Source: Chloroflexota bacterium
GTDB lineage: Bacteria > Chloroflexota > Anaerolineae > Anaerolineales > Villigracilaceae
Assembly: GCA_016235425.1 (NCBI GenBank)
Contig: JACRLC010000093.1
Span: 1-40,239, forward strand
Direction: 5' to 3'
Length of the DNA: 40,239 nt
Part shown: positions 3,076 through 26,854 of the stretch, piece by piece
Position numbering within the stretch: the first letter of the stretch is position 1
Layout: every line of letters starts with the position of its first letter
The notes under the pieces: model-generated
What the model was told of the DNA's origin: nothing
What the model saw: only the letters and a program-made list of their open reading frames with translations
Database searches by the model: none
Position numbers and translations under genes: made by a program

Positions 3076-4688
3076 TTACTTAAAATACCCGCGCACAATA
3101 TCGGAGTAATCCGCGCCGGTGTGTTCGTCGAGGATGCGGAAGAAGTCTTCGCGGGTTGCGATCTTCTCCCGGTTTTGCATGTATACTGAACACGGTCACT
3201 TTCTGCGCTTTTAATTTACCGCTAAGATCGCAAAGAGCGCGAAGGAAATGCGTGTTCTTAGCGTTCTTAGCGTTCTTTGCGGGCTTCGCGGTTTAATTTC
3301 GCCGATTCTCAAAACCGCAATTTGTGACCGTGCCAAGTATAGTAATCCCGGATGAAGGCGAAGAAGGCTTCGTCGCCGATTCTGCCGCGTAAATCCTGCA
3401 GGAAGTGTGCGCCGTTGAAATAGACGGTGTGCTTATAGGTGTCGTCGTTTTGGCCGTCGTAGACGGGGATGTTTATTTTTCCCTTCGGCTCGAAGTAATC
3501 AATGCGATAAGACCACCACCACGGAACCAAATCAGGATAAAGCGTTTCGTAAAAAATGGCTTCGGAATACGTAGTGAGCGATTCGTCCAGCCACGGTTCG
3601 AGCGCCTGGTCGTTCGCGACCTGGTCGAACCACCATTGGTGCGCGGTCTCGTGCGCGGCGACGAAGGTGAGATAGTTTTGGGACGTGCCGTTGTATTGGT
3701 CGTAGAAACTGCGGCTGTGGAAATAGAACGCGGAGAATTCCATGCTGTCTTTGAAATCGGCAATGATGATGGAAAGTGATTTGTGCGGGTACGGCCCAAA
3801 CTTCTGCGAATAGACTTGCAATGCGTCGGCGCTGGCGGTCATGGCGGCCTGACCCGCCCTTTCATAAATGGGGAAATAATAACTGGAGATTTTTACATCT
3901 CCCACTTTGGTATTTGAGACTTGAAATTCGCGGCTGGCCGAGAGGGTGAAGGCGCGGCCTGCGGTCAGTGTGTAGCGCGTGGATTCGCCGTTGGGTTCGG
4001 GGAATCCGCTGGAGGCGACGATGGGCGCGGTTTCGGGATTCGCGAGTTTAAGATTGACTTCAAAATCGGCGATGGGGTAGACGAGATATTCGCCGTGCGA
4101 CCACGGCTCGCGCAGAATCCATTCTCCGTTCGCGAACGGGACGATGAACGGGTACCAGTTCGTCAGATTCATCTGCATTTCAGAGTAGCCAAAAATACGG
4201 GCGCGCAGGCTATTGATTTGATCCATGTAAGGCAGGGAAAGGTTATAGCTGAGAGTCACCGTCGAAACGGATGCAGGTTGGAGCGGTGCGGGAAGCGGTG
4301 CTGTTAAACGGTGTCCGTCCAGGGTGTAGTCCGTGATTGGAATGCCCTCCACTGCGAGGGCGCGGAGTTCAAAACAATTTTGCCAGAGGTTGGGAGCGGC
4401 CGCGAAGACCAGCGAGTCGAGCGGCTGGCCGGTTTGGTTGGGATAGGTGATGGTCTCGTCCACGGTGATGAGGTGGCGGTCGTAATCGAGGAGGATGTTG
4501 AGGATGTACGCGGGACGCGCGGGGATGGGAATCGGCGTGGGGACTTGCGGTGTCGGCGTGGATGTGGGAAGCGGTCCGTTTGCAGGTGGAATGGGTGTGG
4601 AAATTGCCGGTGGAGCCGCGTAATTGTTACAGGATGAGGCGATGAACAGAAAACTGCAAAGCGCGAGATGAAGGAGGTGTTGACGCAT
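3076..4688 (-). pseudogene. M1-type (gluzincin) metallopeptidase lipoprotein, C-terminus disrupted
   Basis: The main frame, 3309-4688, encodes 459 residues. A lipoprotein signal ends in FIASSC (C20), followed by a Pro/Thr-rich linker, then an M1-like fold. The zinc site is HETAH (346-350) with the third ligand E369 eighteen residues on, and M316-E317 stand near the usual GAMEN exopeptidase position. The frame stops just after DYYTWHGHKLRF. At 3076-3180, in another frame, lie 34 codons (IATREDFFRILDEHTG and onward to SDIVRGYFK) that read as the natural end of such a peptidase. A 9-nt-periodic palindrome sits between them. The catalytic core is intact, so a shortened secreted enzyme may still be made. 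The native role would be cell-surface peptide hydrolysis. Confidence 0.75.
3191..3332. repeat. 9-nt-periodic palindromic element splitting the metallopeptidase
   Basis: The core, 3218-3292, is built of degenerate 9-mers such as ACCGCTAAG and AGCGCGAAG, mirrored by CTTAGCGTT and CTTCGCGGT. It is flanked by direct repeats TTAATTT (3211-3217 and 3293-3299), a possible 7-bp target duplication. An outer inverted pair, CACGGTCAC (3191-3199) and GTGACCGTG (3324-3332), encloses it. The same family recurs at 12147, 22757 and 26612. Confidence 0.75.
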
Positions 4689-11632: not shown

Positions 11633-12517
11633 ATGCCCAAAATTCGTTTGGATGTTTTATTGACCGAACGCGGACTGGCCGAATCGCGCTCCAAAGCGCA
11701 GGCGCTCATCATGGCCGGGCAAGTCCGGGTGAACGGTCAAGTCGCCCTGAAACCTGCCATCGGCATTGATTCAGAATCAGCCCTGACGGTGGATACCGGC
11801 CCGCGCTTCGTCTCGCGCGGCGGCGAAAAACTGGACGCGGCGCTGGATGCTTTTGGCGTGAATCTCTCCGGCCTTGTCTGCGCGGACGTTGGCTCATCCA
11901 CCGGAGGCTTTACGGATTGCATGTTGCAACGCGGCGCGGTAAAAGTCTACGCCATTGACGTGGGTAAGGGTATCCTGCACTGGAAATTACGCAACGACCC
12001 GCGCGTGGTGGTGATGGAAGAGACCAACGCGCGCTTTGTCGAGTCGCTGCCTGAACAGGTTGATTTTGTGACGGTGGATGCGTCGTTTATTTCGTTGAAG
12101 ATTCTCTTGCCTGTGATAAAGAACTGGTTCTCACCATTGGAATCTCACCGCGAAGAGCGCGAAGGCCGCGAAGAAAAAAAGAATCTTAGCGCTCTTCGCG
12201 TGCTTCGCGGTTCAGAAAACATGCAGGGTGGGATCGTTGCGCTCATCAAACCCCAATTCGAAGCCGGAAAAAAAGACGTTGCCCGCGGCGATGGCGTGAT
12301 CCGTGATCCGGAAGTACACAAACAGGTGCTTCTCGATATTTTGACTTTCGCTCAAAATGCAGGCTTCGCGATACGCGGGCTGGTCAGGTCGCCGTTGCTG
12401 GGGCCAAAGGGAAACACGGAATTTTTGGTGTGGCTCACAAATGACGGGAATGAAATTGACATTCCCGGCTTGCTAGATTCTTTGTTTGCCAACAGGCGAC
12501 TGTCACTTCCAAAGTGA
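11633..12517 (+). CDS. tlyA: TlyA-type rRNA (cytidine-2'-O)-methyltransferase with repeat insertion
   Basis: The product has 294 residues. An N-terminal S4 RNA-binding domain (about 4-65, beginning RLDVLLTERGLAESRSKAQ) is followed by an FtsJ-like SAM methyltransferase domain. That domain has motif I ADVGSSTGGFTDCMLQRGA (84-102) and later TVDASFISL and ALIKPQFEAG. It 2'-O-methylates cytidines in 16S and/or 23S rRNA, and loss of TlyA gives capreomycin resistance in mycobacteria. Residues about 168-198 (between SPLE and GGIVALIKP) are encoded by a 9-nt-periodic palindrome: a charged Arg/Glu run, then NLSALRVLRG. Normal family members go almost directly from the helix to the VALVKP strand. The frame is preserved, so the protein is probably functional with a surface loop. 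The last codons run into a hairpin. Confidence 0.88.
   Translation: MPKIRLDVLLTERGLAESRSKAQALIMAGQVRVNGQVALKPAIGIDSESALTVDTGPRFVSRGGEKLDAALDAFGVNLSGLVCADVGSSTGGFTDCMLQRGAVKVYAIDVGKGILHWKLRNDPRVVVMEETNARFVESLPEQVDFVTVDASFISLKILLPVIKNWFSPLESHREEREGREEKKNLSALRVLRGSENMQGGIVALIKPQFEAGKKDVARGDGVIRDPEVHKQVLLDILTFAQNAGFAIRGLVRSPLLGPKGNTEFLVWLTNDGNEIDIPGLLDSLFANRRLSLPK
12147..12211. repeat. 9-nt-periodic palindrome inside tlyA
   Basis: Degenerate ACCGCGAAG/AGCGCGAAG/GCCGCGAAG units are mirrored by CTTAGCGCT/CTTCGCGTG/CTTCGCGGT around an A-rich centre. It is the same family as at 3218, 22757 and 26612, here carried in frame in a coding sequence. Confidence 0.85.
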
Positions 12518-21219: not shown

Positions 21220-21550
21220 ATAAAACTTTTCCTTCTTTGAGAATATCGCGTATAAAGGAATCGCCTATTTTTACGCGCTCTTTCAGCCGTTCGGGTGTGC
21301 ACACGAGCAAGTCAAGCGCAAACATGACCCCCAGATAATGTCGAATTTCGAGGGATTTTACAGGCGCCTCCATGATGATGAGCAAATCCACATCACTATA
21401 TTGTCTGGGTTTCCCCCGCGCATACGAGCCGAACAAAATGATCTTCTGCGGCTTGAACTTCTCCGCGATCTGGCGCGTGACAGCGCGGATGGCCGAAGCG
21501 GGGATCCGTTTGCGTTTGTCAATCGTAGGGACGTTCAATGCGGGATTCAT
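21200..21550 (-). CDS. MNT-type minimal nucleotidyltransferase (MntA-like antitoxin), orphan
   Basis: The product has 116 residues. The polymerase-beta fold signature is complete: G41-S42 in ILFGSYARGK and the metal ligands D53 and D55 in YSDVDLLI. These small enzymes normally pair with a HEPN RNase. MntA of HepT/MntA modules AMPylates and silences the toxin. Here only the first codons of a HEPN gene follow, so the module is broken and this protein has no visible target. A TTG nine bases upstream is an alternative start. Its 5' end is divergent from the GT4 gene, with their starts 48 bp apart. Confidence 0.85.
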   Translation of the reverse strand: MNPALNVPTIDKRKRIPASAIRAVTRQIAEKFKPQKIILFGSYARGKPRQYSDVDLLIIMEAPVKSLEIRHYLGVMFALDLLVCTPERLKERVKIGDSFIRDILKEGKVLYELPGR

Positions 21551-21582
21551 GGTCCTCAAAAATCATTATACAACAATCGCGT

Positions 21583-21588
21583 TATAAT
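21583..21588 (+). promoter_or_regulatory. -10 hexamer of the GT4 glycosyltransferase gene
   Basis: A consensus TATAAT ends 10 nt before the ATG at 21599. The gene has no ribosome-binding site. Transcription from here would give a 5' leader of only a few nucleotides. Confidence 0.5.
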
Positions 21589-21598
21589 CCCCCCGCTT

Positions 21599-22756
21599 AT
21601 GAAAATCCTGACTGTTCTTACCTATTATCGCCCGCACACATCCGGGCTTACCATTTATGCCGAACGCCTCGCGCGTGCCTTTGCGAAGCGCGGACACCAG
21701 GTCACGGTGATGACCACGCAGTACGATCCGTCTCTTCCGCGCGAAGAAATGATGGACGGTGTCAAAGTCATTCGCGTGCCGGTTGCGGCGCGCGTCAGCA
21801 AGGGCGTGCTCGCTCCCACGTTTGGCCTCGTCGCGACAAAACTCGTTTGGGAGCACGATGTTGTCCAATTGCACCTGCCCCAATTCGACGCGCCCGGCGT
21901 GGCTCTGCGCGCCCGTCTCTTCGGCAAACCTGCCGTGCTTACTTATCATTGCGACCTGTTCCTGCCGCGCACCTGGTTCAACCGTTTCGTGAACACGGTG
22001 GTCAATTTTCAAAACAACATGGCGGGACACCTCGCGAATCACATCGTCACTTATACACAAGACTACGCCGACAATTCCCCCTACCTCTCGCGCTTCGCCT
22101 CAAAACTGACCCCCATCCTGCCTCCGGTTGAAATGCCTGTTCCCACGCCCGAGGCTGTTTCCGCTTTCGCCAGCAAACATCGCACCAAAGAACAGCGGCC
22201 TGTGATCGGCATGGTCACGCGTTTTGCTTCCGAGAAGGGTGTGGAAGTTTTACTGGAAGCGTTGCCCGCGATCTTGAAAAAATATCCCAATGCCCAGGTC
22301 TTGTACGCCGGGCAGCATGAAAATGTAATGGGCGAGCAGGCCTACTTCGACCGGTTGATCCCGCAGATACGCGAGTACGAAAAATCCGGCCATTGGACAT
22401 TCCTCGGGAATCTCGATCCCGTCCAACTTGCCGCGTTATATCCCAACCTCGATGTGTTGACCGTCCCTTCGCTCAACTCCACCGAAGCCTTTGGGCTTGT
22501 GCAAATCGAAGCGATGATGAATGGAGTGCCAAGTGTGCCGTCTGCGTTGCCGGGGGTGCGGCAGCCCGTCGCGATGCACGGGATGGGACGTGTCTCTCAA
22601 ATTGGGGATTCTGCCAGTTTAGCGGAAGCCATCCTTGAGGTCCTGGGCGAGGCGAATAAATTCAAGGGTGACATTGAATCGATCAAGAAATCCTATAACC
22701 CTGATTCCATCGCGGCGGAGTATGAAAAACTGTTTGAGAAGTTGAAAAAAGCTTAA
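21599..22756 (+). CDS. GT4-family glycosyltransferase
   Basis: The product has 385 residues and a GT-B fold. The N-terminus MKILTVLTYYRPHTSGLTIY has the donor-side Gly/Ser loop, and a middle RFASEKGVEVLLEA block carries the diphosphate-binding Arg/Lys pair. The E-x7-E motif lies in NSTEAFGLVQIEAMMNGVPS. It transfers a sugar from an NDP-sugar, probably to a lipid-linked acceptor at the cytoplasmic face. The donor cannot be told. A longer upstream frame exists, but it runs antisense through the nucleotidyltransferase gene and the consensus -10 argues against it. Two methyltransferase genes follow. Confidence 0.88.
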   Translation: MKILTVLTYYRPHTSGLTIYAERLARAFAKRGHQVTVMTTQYDPSLPREEMMDGVKVIRVPVAARVSKGVLAPTFGLVATKLVWEHDVVQLHLPQFDAPGVALRARLFGKPAVLTYHCDLFLPRTWFNRFVNTVVNFQNNMAGHLANHIVTYTQDYADNSPYLSRFASKLTPILPPVEMPVPTPEAVSAFASKHRTKEQRPVIGMVTRFASEKGVEVLLEALPAILKKYPNAQVLYAGQHENVMGEQAYFDRLIPQIREYEKSGHWTFLGNLDPVQLAALYPNLDVLTVPSLNSTEAFGLVQIEAMMNGVPSVPSALPGVRQPVAMHGMGRVSQIGDSASLAEAILEVLGEANKFKGDIESIKKSYNPDSIAAEYEKLFEKLKKA

Positions 22757-22819
22757 ACACAAAGGACACGAAGTACACAAAGGGACTTTTTTCTTCGCGA
22801 CCTTTGCGTTCTTCGCGGT
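22757..22819. repeat. 9-nt-periodic palindrome between GT4 and methyltransferase genes
   Basis: ACACAAAGG, ACACGAAGT and ACACAAAGG units are mirrored by CTTCGCGAC, CTTTGCGTT and CTTCGCGGT. It belongs to the family at 3218, 12147 and 26612, though the left arm is more diverged. Confidence 0.7.
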
Positions 22820-26575: not shown

Positions 26576-26611
26576 ACCTAGACCCTAACTCGGACGAGCC
26601 GAAAAAGTTTT

Positions 26612-26680
26612 ACCGCGAAGCCCGCTAAGAGCGCAAAGATTTTAAAGGTTTTTCTTAGCGGCCTTTGCGTGCTTGGCGGT
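26612..26680. repeat. 9-nt-periodic palindrome between the two GT39 genes
   Basis: The 279-bp gap 26576-26854 contains this palindrome (ACCGCGAAG, CCCGCTAAG, AGCGCAAAG mirrored by CTTAGCGGC, CTTTGCGTG, CTTGGCGGT). The remaining ~170 bp up to the next start hold no recognised signal. Confidence 0.8.
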
Positions 26681-26854
26681 TCAAAAATTCTTGCGCAAAA
26701 AACAAGGAGTTCACTTGTCAGGTACTAAAGGTTTTTTTGATACTCGGGTGGTTAATTTTTGGCAGGGGACCTTGCTTGTTCCACCTGTTCAATTGCAAAG
26801 GAAACCTTTAGGGTCTTTTCCTCATGGAATGGATAACTACAAAAAGAATTCGGC

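Follow-up and report, generated by a model that had tools for sequence, protein, structure and literature searches.

Palindrome in the tlyA gene

The window, i.e., the whole stretch of 40,239 nucleotides that was analysed, contained a tlyA gene and four short palindromes, one of which was read in frame within tlyA (Table 1). The palindromes were found at the coordinates that a preliminary description of this DNA had given. The arms of the tlyA palindrome were composed of ACCGCGAAG-AG-CGCGAAG-GC-CGCGAAG on one side and of the reverse complement of ACCGCGAAG-CA-CGCGAAG-AG-CGCTAAG on the other. The fold of this copy was calculated at -39.5 kcal/mol, as against a mean of -23.1 for shuffled sequences (z -4.8; 1 of 200 shuffles as good). 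The fold of the copy at 22757 was weak (z -1.7; 15 of 200 shuffles equally good).

Table 1. Features found in the window, including the repeats that carry two of its palindromes
Feature	Position	Strand	Basis
tlyA (S4 and FtsJ-like methyltransferase domains), insert at residues ~168-198	11633..12517	+	Pfam: S4 residues 5-42, FtsJ 59-268
Compact gene-less palindrome, read in frame in tlyA	12147..12211	.	Fold; segment missing or replaced in homologues
Palindrome, subfamily A; four units in right arm	3218..3292	.	Sequence
Palindrome, CACRAAG left arm and CGCRAAG right arm, directly after stop codon of ORF 21338-22756	22757..22819	.	
Palindrome, subfamily B	26612..26680	.	
MITE-like repeat, inverted ends TATACT..CACGGTCAC, carrying the 3218 copy	3182..3341	.	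Same flanks at other subfamily A copies of the genome
Longer repeated block, flanks ..CGAAAAAGTTTT / TCAAAAATTC.., carrying the 26612 copy	26580..26724	.	Edges by eye

The homologues of tlyA were present in 59 of the 61 genomes of the window's genus, family and order; loci from 30 of these were available, and 28 of the 30 were parsed, two being left out. Besides the window gene, the palindrome was found among the 28 parsed loci only in L032, which belongs to another genus (genome G003), and there in a changed form. In the remaining parsed homologues the segment was missing or other palindromes were present in its place. The loop between the LLPVIKNW and ALIKPQFEAG motifs ranged from 24 to 195 nt across the homologues. 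In G001, a genome of the same genus, it contained an unrelated CCCCATTTTC..GAAAATGGGG palindrome, and in further relatives it contained CCCCTCTCCC..GGGAGAGGGG, different palindromes, or none. The strongest hairpin of the gene was located in this loop in 15 of the 28 loci. As the loops of the homologues hold such varied palindromes, the loop is the landing place of several unrelated palindromes. The alignment of the 28 loci, most of them without the segment or with other palindromes, bears out the earlier proposal that the segment was inserted rather than being an old loop. To judge from this alignment, the insert is real and not very young. In the relatives (L033-L060) the tlyA loop was a hot spot, with unrelated palindromes at one site in different genera.

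Palindrome family in the genome

Adjacent pairs of the CGCGAAGNNCGCGAAG unit, with up to two mismatches, were found 17 times in the window, as against 0.69 expected, a count that no shuffle out of 100 attained. Across the genome as a whole, ACCGCGAAGNNCGCGAAG with up to one mismatch gave 78 matches, as against one for the reversed pattern. The preliminary description had suggested a genome search with a covariance model of the palindrome; this search gave at least 119 matches, which were merged by hand into at least about 62 places, a lower bound because only 150 of the 2750 candidates were scored. The comparison of the window with Rfam gave no family reaching the gathering threshold.

In 17 aligned copies the unit was NNCGCNAAG, with most of its C, C, A, A and G positions invariant or nearly so and with a variable wobble letter and two variable spacer letters. 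The usual form of the palindrome started with a T-rich part, often ending with TGA or TTA, followed by ACCGCNAAG-NN-CGCNAAG-NN-CGCNAAG, a loop often containing AAAACCTTT, the mirrored arm and an A-rich stretch. The foot of the hairpin was mostly TT[GT]A-ACC..GGT-T[CA]A, in which no GTAG or CGTC tetranucleotide, the tag of REP/REPIN, was seen by eye. The compact copies (n=31) were 61-75 nt long.

The four window copies had been described as one family, which held with a reservation for the copy at 22757, whose two arms are built of different units. Mixed-unit palindromes were also seen at L120 and L130, as though each had combined the arms of two families. The copies outside tlyA had been said to be intergenic or to break genes; all three were found to adjoin ORF ends or to lie 17 to 37 nt past them, whereas a gene break was seen at none of them in the window.

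Reading frame of the copies

A period of 9 nt had been thought to preserve the reading frame by design, and the copies did not agree with this. The lengths of the 31 compact copies fell 12, 14 and 5 times at 0, 1 and 2 modulo 3, with no excess of multiples of three, and 3.26 of the six frames were open, as against 2.98 in shuffles. The count of coding against intergenic copies, also proposed earlier, placed nine of the 59 window-genome copies with both arms delimited in an open frame (ten frames, with at least 40 residues on either side). A Pfam scan of five of the ten open frames found domains on both sides of the copy, or across it, in two, namely tlyA and an AddA/UvrD-like gene. In-frame copies are rare.

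The second in-frame copy was located in the AddA/UvrD-like helicase-nuclease gene at L085 (G000:C47), with Pfam domains on both of its sides. Among the seven closest sequences aligned, that of G005 contained a changed copy, that of G016 another repeat, and the four most distant neither; the loop with the copy was merely a few residues longer than in these four. A further in-frame stretch of this gene, SPLPTGEGLGVRADSPLPELGEGSGVRA, looks like a second palindrome family.

GxxExxY nuclease genes framed by the arms

Outside the window, the same genome contained a nuclease-bearing element of 498 bp with arms of the tlyA type (G000:C100:3488-3985), in which the stop codon of the nuclease gene fell in the first unit of the downstream arm. 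The nuclease matched TIGR04256 (GxxExxY; 1.4e-36 for the window-genome protein of 140 residues) and PF13366. The best matches of its structure model (pLDDT 94.9) were PD-(D/E)XK nucleases, namely SSO0001, a Cas4 (Z 9.5), and 3ijm (Z 8.1), with the archaeal Holliday junction resolvase Hjc at Z 7.2; structural Z values below 8 are common by chance. In Foldseek the best match was lambda exonuclease (E 0.009), with none at E 0.001 or better, and no match was found among PDB sequences. The residues E29, D69, E79, K81 and Q93 were invariant in 13 diverse sequences and are presumably the catalytic residues. By family match, modelled fold and conserved acidic and lysine residues, GxxExxY is a predicted PD-(D/E)XK nuclease, and the likeness of the model to Hjc suggests a branched or hairpin DNA substrate. 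The family is named but unexplained, and little is said of it in the open-licence literature, in which (most subscription journals lying outside it) no link of GxxExxY to such arms was found. In the accessible parts of PMC8934634 it is named only as a neighbour gene.

The arms were tested independently of the unit by aligning the 200 nt upstream of each gene to the reverse complement of the 200 nt downstream, with a threshold of 27.8, the 99th percentile of 524 displaced windows. Among the best 80 of 580 confirmed GxxExxY matches from all phyla, 55 of the 77 testable loci exceeded this threshold and 22 fell under it; the mean score was 38.4, as against 18.1 in displaced windows, and seven loci exceeded the highest control window (55). 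The record titles of these best 80 named Planctomycetota, Methanosarcinales, Proteobacteria, Bacteroidota, Cyanobacteria, Acidobacteria, Spirochaetota, Verrucomicrobiota, Chloroflexota and others.

Within ten genomes of the window's family, the threshold was exceeded by 19/24 PF13366, 19/28 PF05635 and 3/25 Y1 transposase loci, and by 0/29 tlyA genes from relatives; 6, 2, 5 and 1 of 30 loci, respectively, were left out as too short. Strict nonamer arms were found at 9/30 PF13366 loci and at 5/30 tlyA loci (two of them the insert itself), and at none of 30 Y1 loci of the ten genomes, these 30 being part of all Y1 matches. On reading, most PF13366 loci without strict nonamer arms had arms of other units. 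The best lag of the arms was 8-10 nt, with a peak at 9 nt, in 44 of the 55 all-phyla loci (from the best 80 of 580 matches) and in 19 of 19 loci of the window's family. The arms of PF05635 loci had a best lag of 7 or 14 in 15 of 19 loci. Both the insertion in tlyA and the association of the arms with the nuclease are well supported.

PF05635, the 23S rRNA intervening-sequence protein (L284-L313), had 2-14 matches per genome in ten genomes, often with inverted heptamer arms. At G018:C14:63048-63515, thirteen CACGAAT unit pairs in one orientation followed each other in steps of 37-38 nt just past a GxxExxY gene. On plasmids, GxxExxY was found in 8 of 72,556 records at E 1e-5, which are too few to set the edges of the element.

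Arm unit and nuclease clade

In the window's family, 46 PF13366 loci were found, of which 31 contained a scoreable arm (arm score above 24) and motif and 15 were left out; two of the 31 (L381 and L383, both 25) lie below 27.8. The enzymes with NFN, NFT or NWN had units ending with AG in 14 of 14 cases, and those with NFG had units ending with AT in 17 of 17 (both classes, Fisher p 3.8e-9; 31 of 46 loci). On a protein tree made by a quick method from 41 rows, the unit label changed once, as against a mean of 10.4 when shuffled. The first 30 loci served to frame the rule; 16 were fetched later, of which 10 were scoreable and all 10 fit (p 0.008). In the all-phyla set (the best 80 of 580 matches), 48 loci were scoreable, all of them of the NFN/NFT/NFS type, and 47 had AG units. 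The NWN enzymes, L196 of the window genome, L372 and L375, had arms mostly of CGCNAAG units, like tlyA. L195 is an NFN enzyme outside the NWN group, yet its arms were CGCCAAG. As the arms and the gene are linked, their joint inheritance could by itself produce the match of unit and clade, which therefore supports, but does not prove, recognition. From these sequence comparisons, the nuclease is likely to recognise its own arm unit.

The gene-less copies of a unit type were commoner where a nuclease with that arm type was present (p 0.00045, three types in ten genomes, with manual assignment of nuclease presence; p 0.00035 once one doubtful assignment was removed). For the tlyA-type units alone, the p value was 0.076. 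G003 (114 pattern matches) and G028 (22) contained CGCNAAG copies and no nuclease with such arms among the loci read, and G027 contained 29 CRCRGAG matches and no PF13366 match.

Pairing at the variable positions

The pairing of the two arms was studied in 26 window-genome copies, left after near-identical subfamily members were dropped. The core positions paired in 459 of 468 cases, and the wobble and spacer positions in 31 of 182, as against 57.9 with the arms swapped among copies (0/5000). In other genomes, 40 stretches were fetched and 11 without an arm pair within 45 nt were left out; the 29 copies paired at 38 of 179 variable positions (0.21), as against an expected 0.334 (3/5000).

A test with the arms oriented by polarity included 35 copies, 23 from the window genome with CGC arms and 12 three-unit CGC copies from elsewhere, with no CRCRGAG copies. 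The wobble position paired in 18 of 105 cases, as against 30.9 (3/3000), and the second spacer in 12 of 70, as against 23.9 (0/3000). The low pairing of the first spacer was rejected as a real deficit, being explained by an old asymmetry and mixed orientation (8/70 against 8.8 in the 35 oriented copies). In the 12 other-genome copies alone, which are too few for a position-by-position result, pairing was 4/36 against 5.5 for the wobble and 7/24 against 9.4 for the second spacer, neither significant, 1/24 against 6.8 for the first spacer, and 12/84 against 21.8 in total (6/3000). The arms framing nuclease genes paired more than by chance (51/96 against 38.9 in 24 loci; 21/5000 as high). In our reading of the low pairing, long perfect hairpins are selected against when their arms are close to each other; the alternative is that perfect copies were lost in assembly. 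The low pairing of the compact copies makes the survival of palindromes in bacterial chromosomes a testable question.

Carriers of the palindromes

About 20 of the 46 complete window-genome copies had flanks common to other copies, as seen by eye. These repeats were of several kinds, two of them with clear inverted ends, and the remaining copies stood alone. MITE transposition thus accounts for part of the copy number. One subfamily of G003 (L061-L080) was carried by a MITE that has inverted ends TCTCTACCGTACAT and is flanked by target duplications; at least 7 bases were common to both ends in 13 of 16 copies, as against 2 of 240 mispaired ends. The target duplications of this MITE were of about 8 bp; some of its copies adjoined terminator-like hairpins and some held nested palindromes.

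Neither an empty site with exact edges nor a target duplication of the palindrome itself was found, and a search with the joined flanks of MITE A gave no clean unfilled copy of MITE A without the palindrome. Nested palindromes occurred, and the flank complementarity exceeded the 99th percentile of 367 controls in 5 of the 46 window-genome copies. A small excess was found for gene-bearing loci (45 loci, 0/300 permutations; eight above the 95th percentile of mispaired flanks). That palindromes aim at palindromes was considered and rejected as a rule, the lone gene-less copies having no excess (24 copies; 204/300 permutations as high).

Interpretation of the elements

With a probability of roughly one half, the tlyA segment belongs, as a form without a gene, to a class of nuclease-bearing palindromic elements that would be REP/RAYT-like in working, without being REP. 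Each arm of such an element would be built from two to four tandem units, each about 9 nt long, with the two arms inverted relative to each other, and the long form would carry the GxxExxY PD-(D/E)XK gene between them. The nuclease would recognise its own unit in the arm DNA, folded as a hairpin or cruciform, and cutting by the nuclease with subsequent repair would copy the arms to new places. It would act in trans on gene-less copies too, in much the way proposed for RAYT and REP. Part of the copies may have spread second-hand inside ordinary MITEs, and the tlyA copy may survive because it fell, with the frame open, in a loop where inserts are tolerated. That the nuclease moves the elements is what we infer and put forward as a proposal. 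More tentatively, this may be a new mobile element of bacteria and archaea, in which a small PD-(D/E)XK gene lies between tandem-oligomer arms, the unit matches the clade, and the gene-less hairpins are spread in trans and are mismatched so that SbcCD or RNase III spare them, with PF05635 and its heptamers as a second, parallel system.

The palindromes could also be hairpins of a generic kind that MITE transposases and replication errors have spread, with the GxxExxY and PF05635 genes settling between the arms without acting. The MITE-like flanks of nearly half of the complete window-genome copies, the G003 subfamily with its target duplications, and the copies in genomes whose loci, as far as read, included no matching nuclease are in line with such passive spread. 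However, the two protein families keep different arm periods (9 and 7 nt), the unit type tracks the nuclease clade with one change on the tree, and the Y1 genes of the same genomes are rarely framed, and we find passive spread rather unlikely. A regulatory role, with the arms as regulator-binding sites, as in Geobacter metallireducens, or as RNA hairpins controlling the neighbours, is improbable: the same architecture is read as global regulator sites in the available text of PMC2700814, and three window copies lie just past ORF ends, but copies also occur inside coding frames and in MITEs with unrelated ends, in many phyla the arms lie closely around genes of a single family, and the window had no Rfam match at the gathering threshold.

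It is very improbable that the palindromes are conventional REP/REPIN mobilised by a Y1 (RAYT) transposase. They resemble REP/REPIN in size, hairpin form and copy number and in having rare in-gene copies, and Y1 matches were present in 10 of 10 genomes searched; the Y1 loci themselves, however, had no strict nonamer arms (0/30) and passed the inverted-arm threshold in 3 of 25 testable cases. Even less credible is an old protein loop or an effect of composition, which would suit the varying loop length among the tlyA homologues and the likeness of the window-genome and G003 versions, whereas the segment is missing or replaced in other homologues and its DNA motif is repeated at some 62 places of the genome. 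If the arms are indeed the substrate of GxxExxY, the family gains a likely role, the palindromic repeats of many genomes gain an explanation, and a natural code would link a nuclease to a short DNA unit.

Comparison with known elements

REP/REPIN with RAYT (Y1) likewise consist of many short hairpin repeats and a gene-bearing form thought to move them, according to the accessible parts of PMC3733652 and PMC3116915. The former also reports REPs in genes, including repair genes, and within other palindromes. In the present elements, by contrast, the arms are composed of tandem 9-nt units and the framed gene encodes a predicted PD-(D/E)XK nuclease and not a Y1 enzyme.

The paired sites of Geobacter metallireducens, as given in the available text of PMC2700814, belong to classes 1-3 and contain three to five tandem 7-9-mers; classes 1 and 2 are paired on opposite strands at variable distance, and the sites are interpreted as those of a global regulator. 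Tandem 7-9-mers on opposite strands at variable distance were also present in the palindromes studied here, and the class 2 consensus TCTCCGTS[Y] resembles, on the other strand, the CACGGAG unit found here. No nuclease is linked to the sites in that text, whereas in our study a GxxExxY gene was found between such arms in Trichlorobacter (L274).

The 23S rRNA intervening sequences with the S23 protein (PF05635) are likewise described, in the portions of PMC4990558 at hand, as selfish elements with a small gene in the loop, and heptamers GACAGAT are given upstream of the S23 protein gene. These heptamers fit the heptamer arms around the PF05635 genes in our study. The intervening sequences differ in being located in rRNA and excised by RNase III, and in having another protein family and another period.

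A likeness to Rickettsia palindromic elements with a different design, as suggested in the preliminary description, was upheld: both are found in frame in protein genes. The Rickettsia elements are about 150 bp long and near half of them lie in genes, as far as PMC10969869 was available, whereas the present palindromes are shorter and 2 of 59 were shown to be in frame in known genes. The insert of tlyA is missing from homologues of the host protein, as for Rickettsia elements; a large in-frame share in unrelated genes, as known there, was not found (9/59 in an open frame; Pfam support in two of the five frames scanned).

Some copies lie within MITE-like repeats that have inverted ends, and the G003 carrier has target duplications. 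The palindrome itself has inverted arms; no duplication was found for it alone, and it recurs in several unrelated carriers and as lone copies. At L354 (G000:C71:7122-7299), a CCCTGGCACCGCCCGCCAGGG palindrome was located in the stem of a nonamer palindrome, which itself lies inside MITE A.
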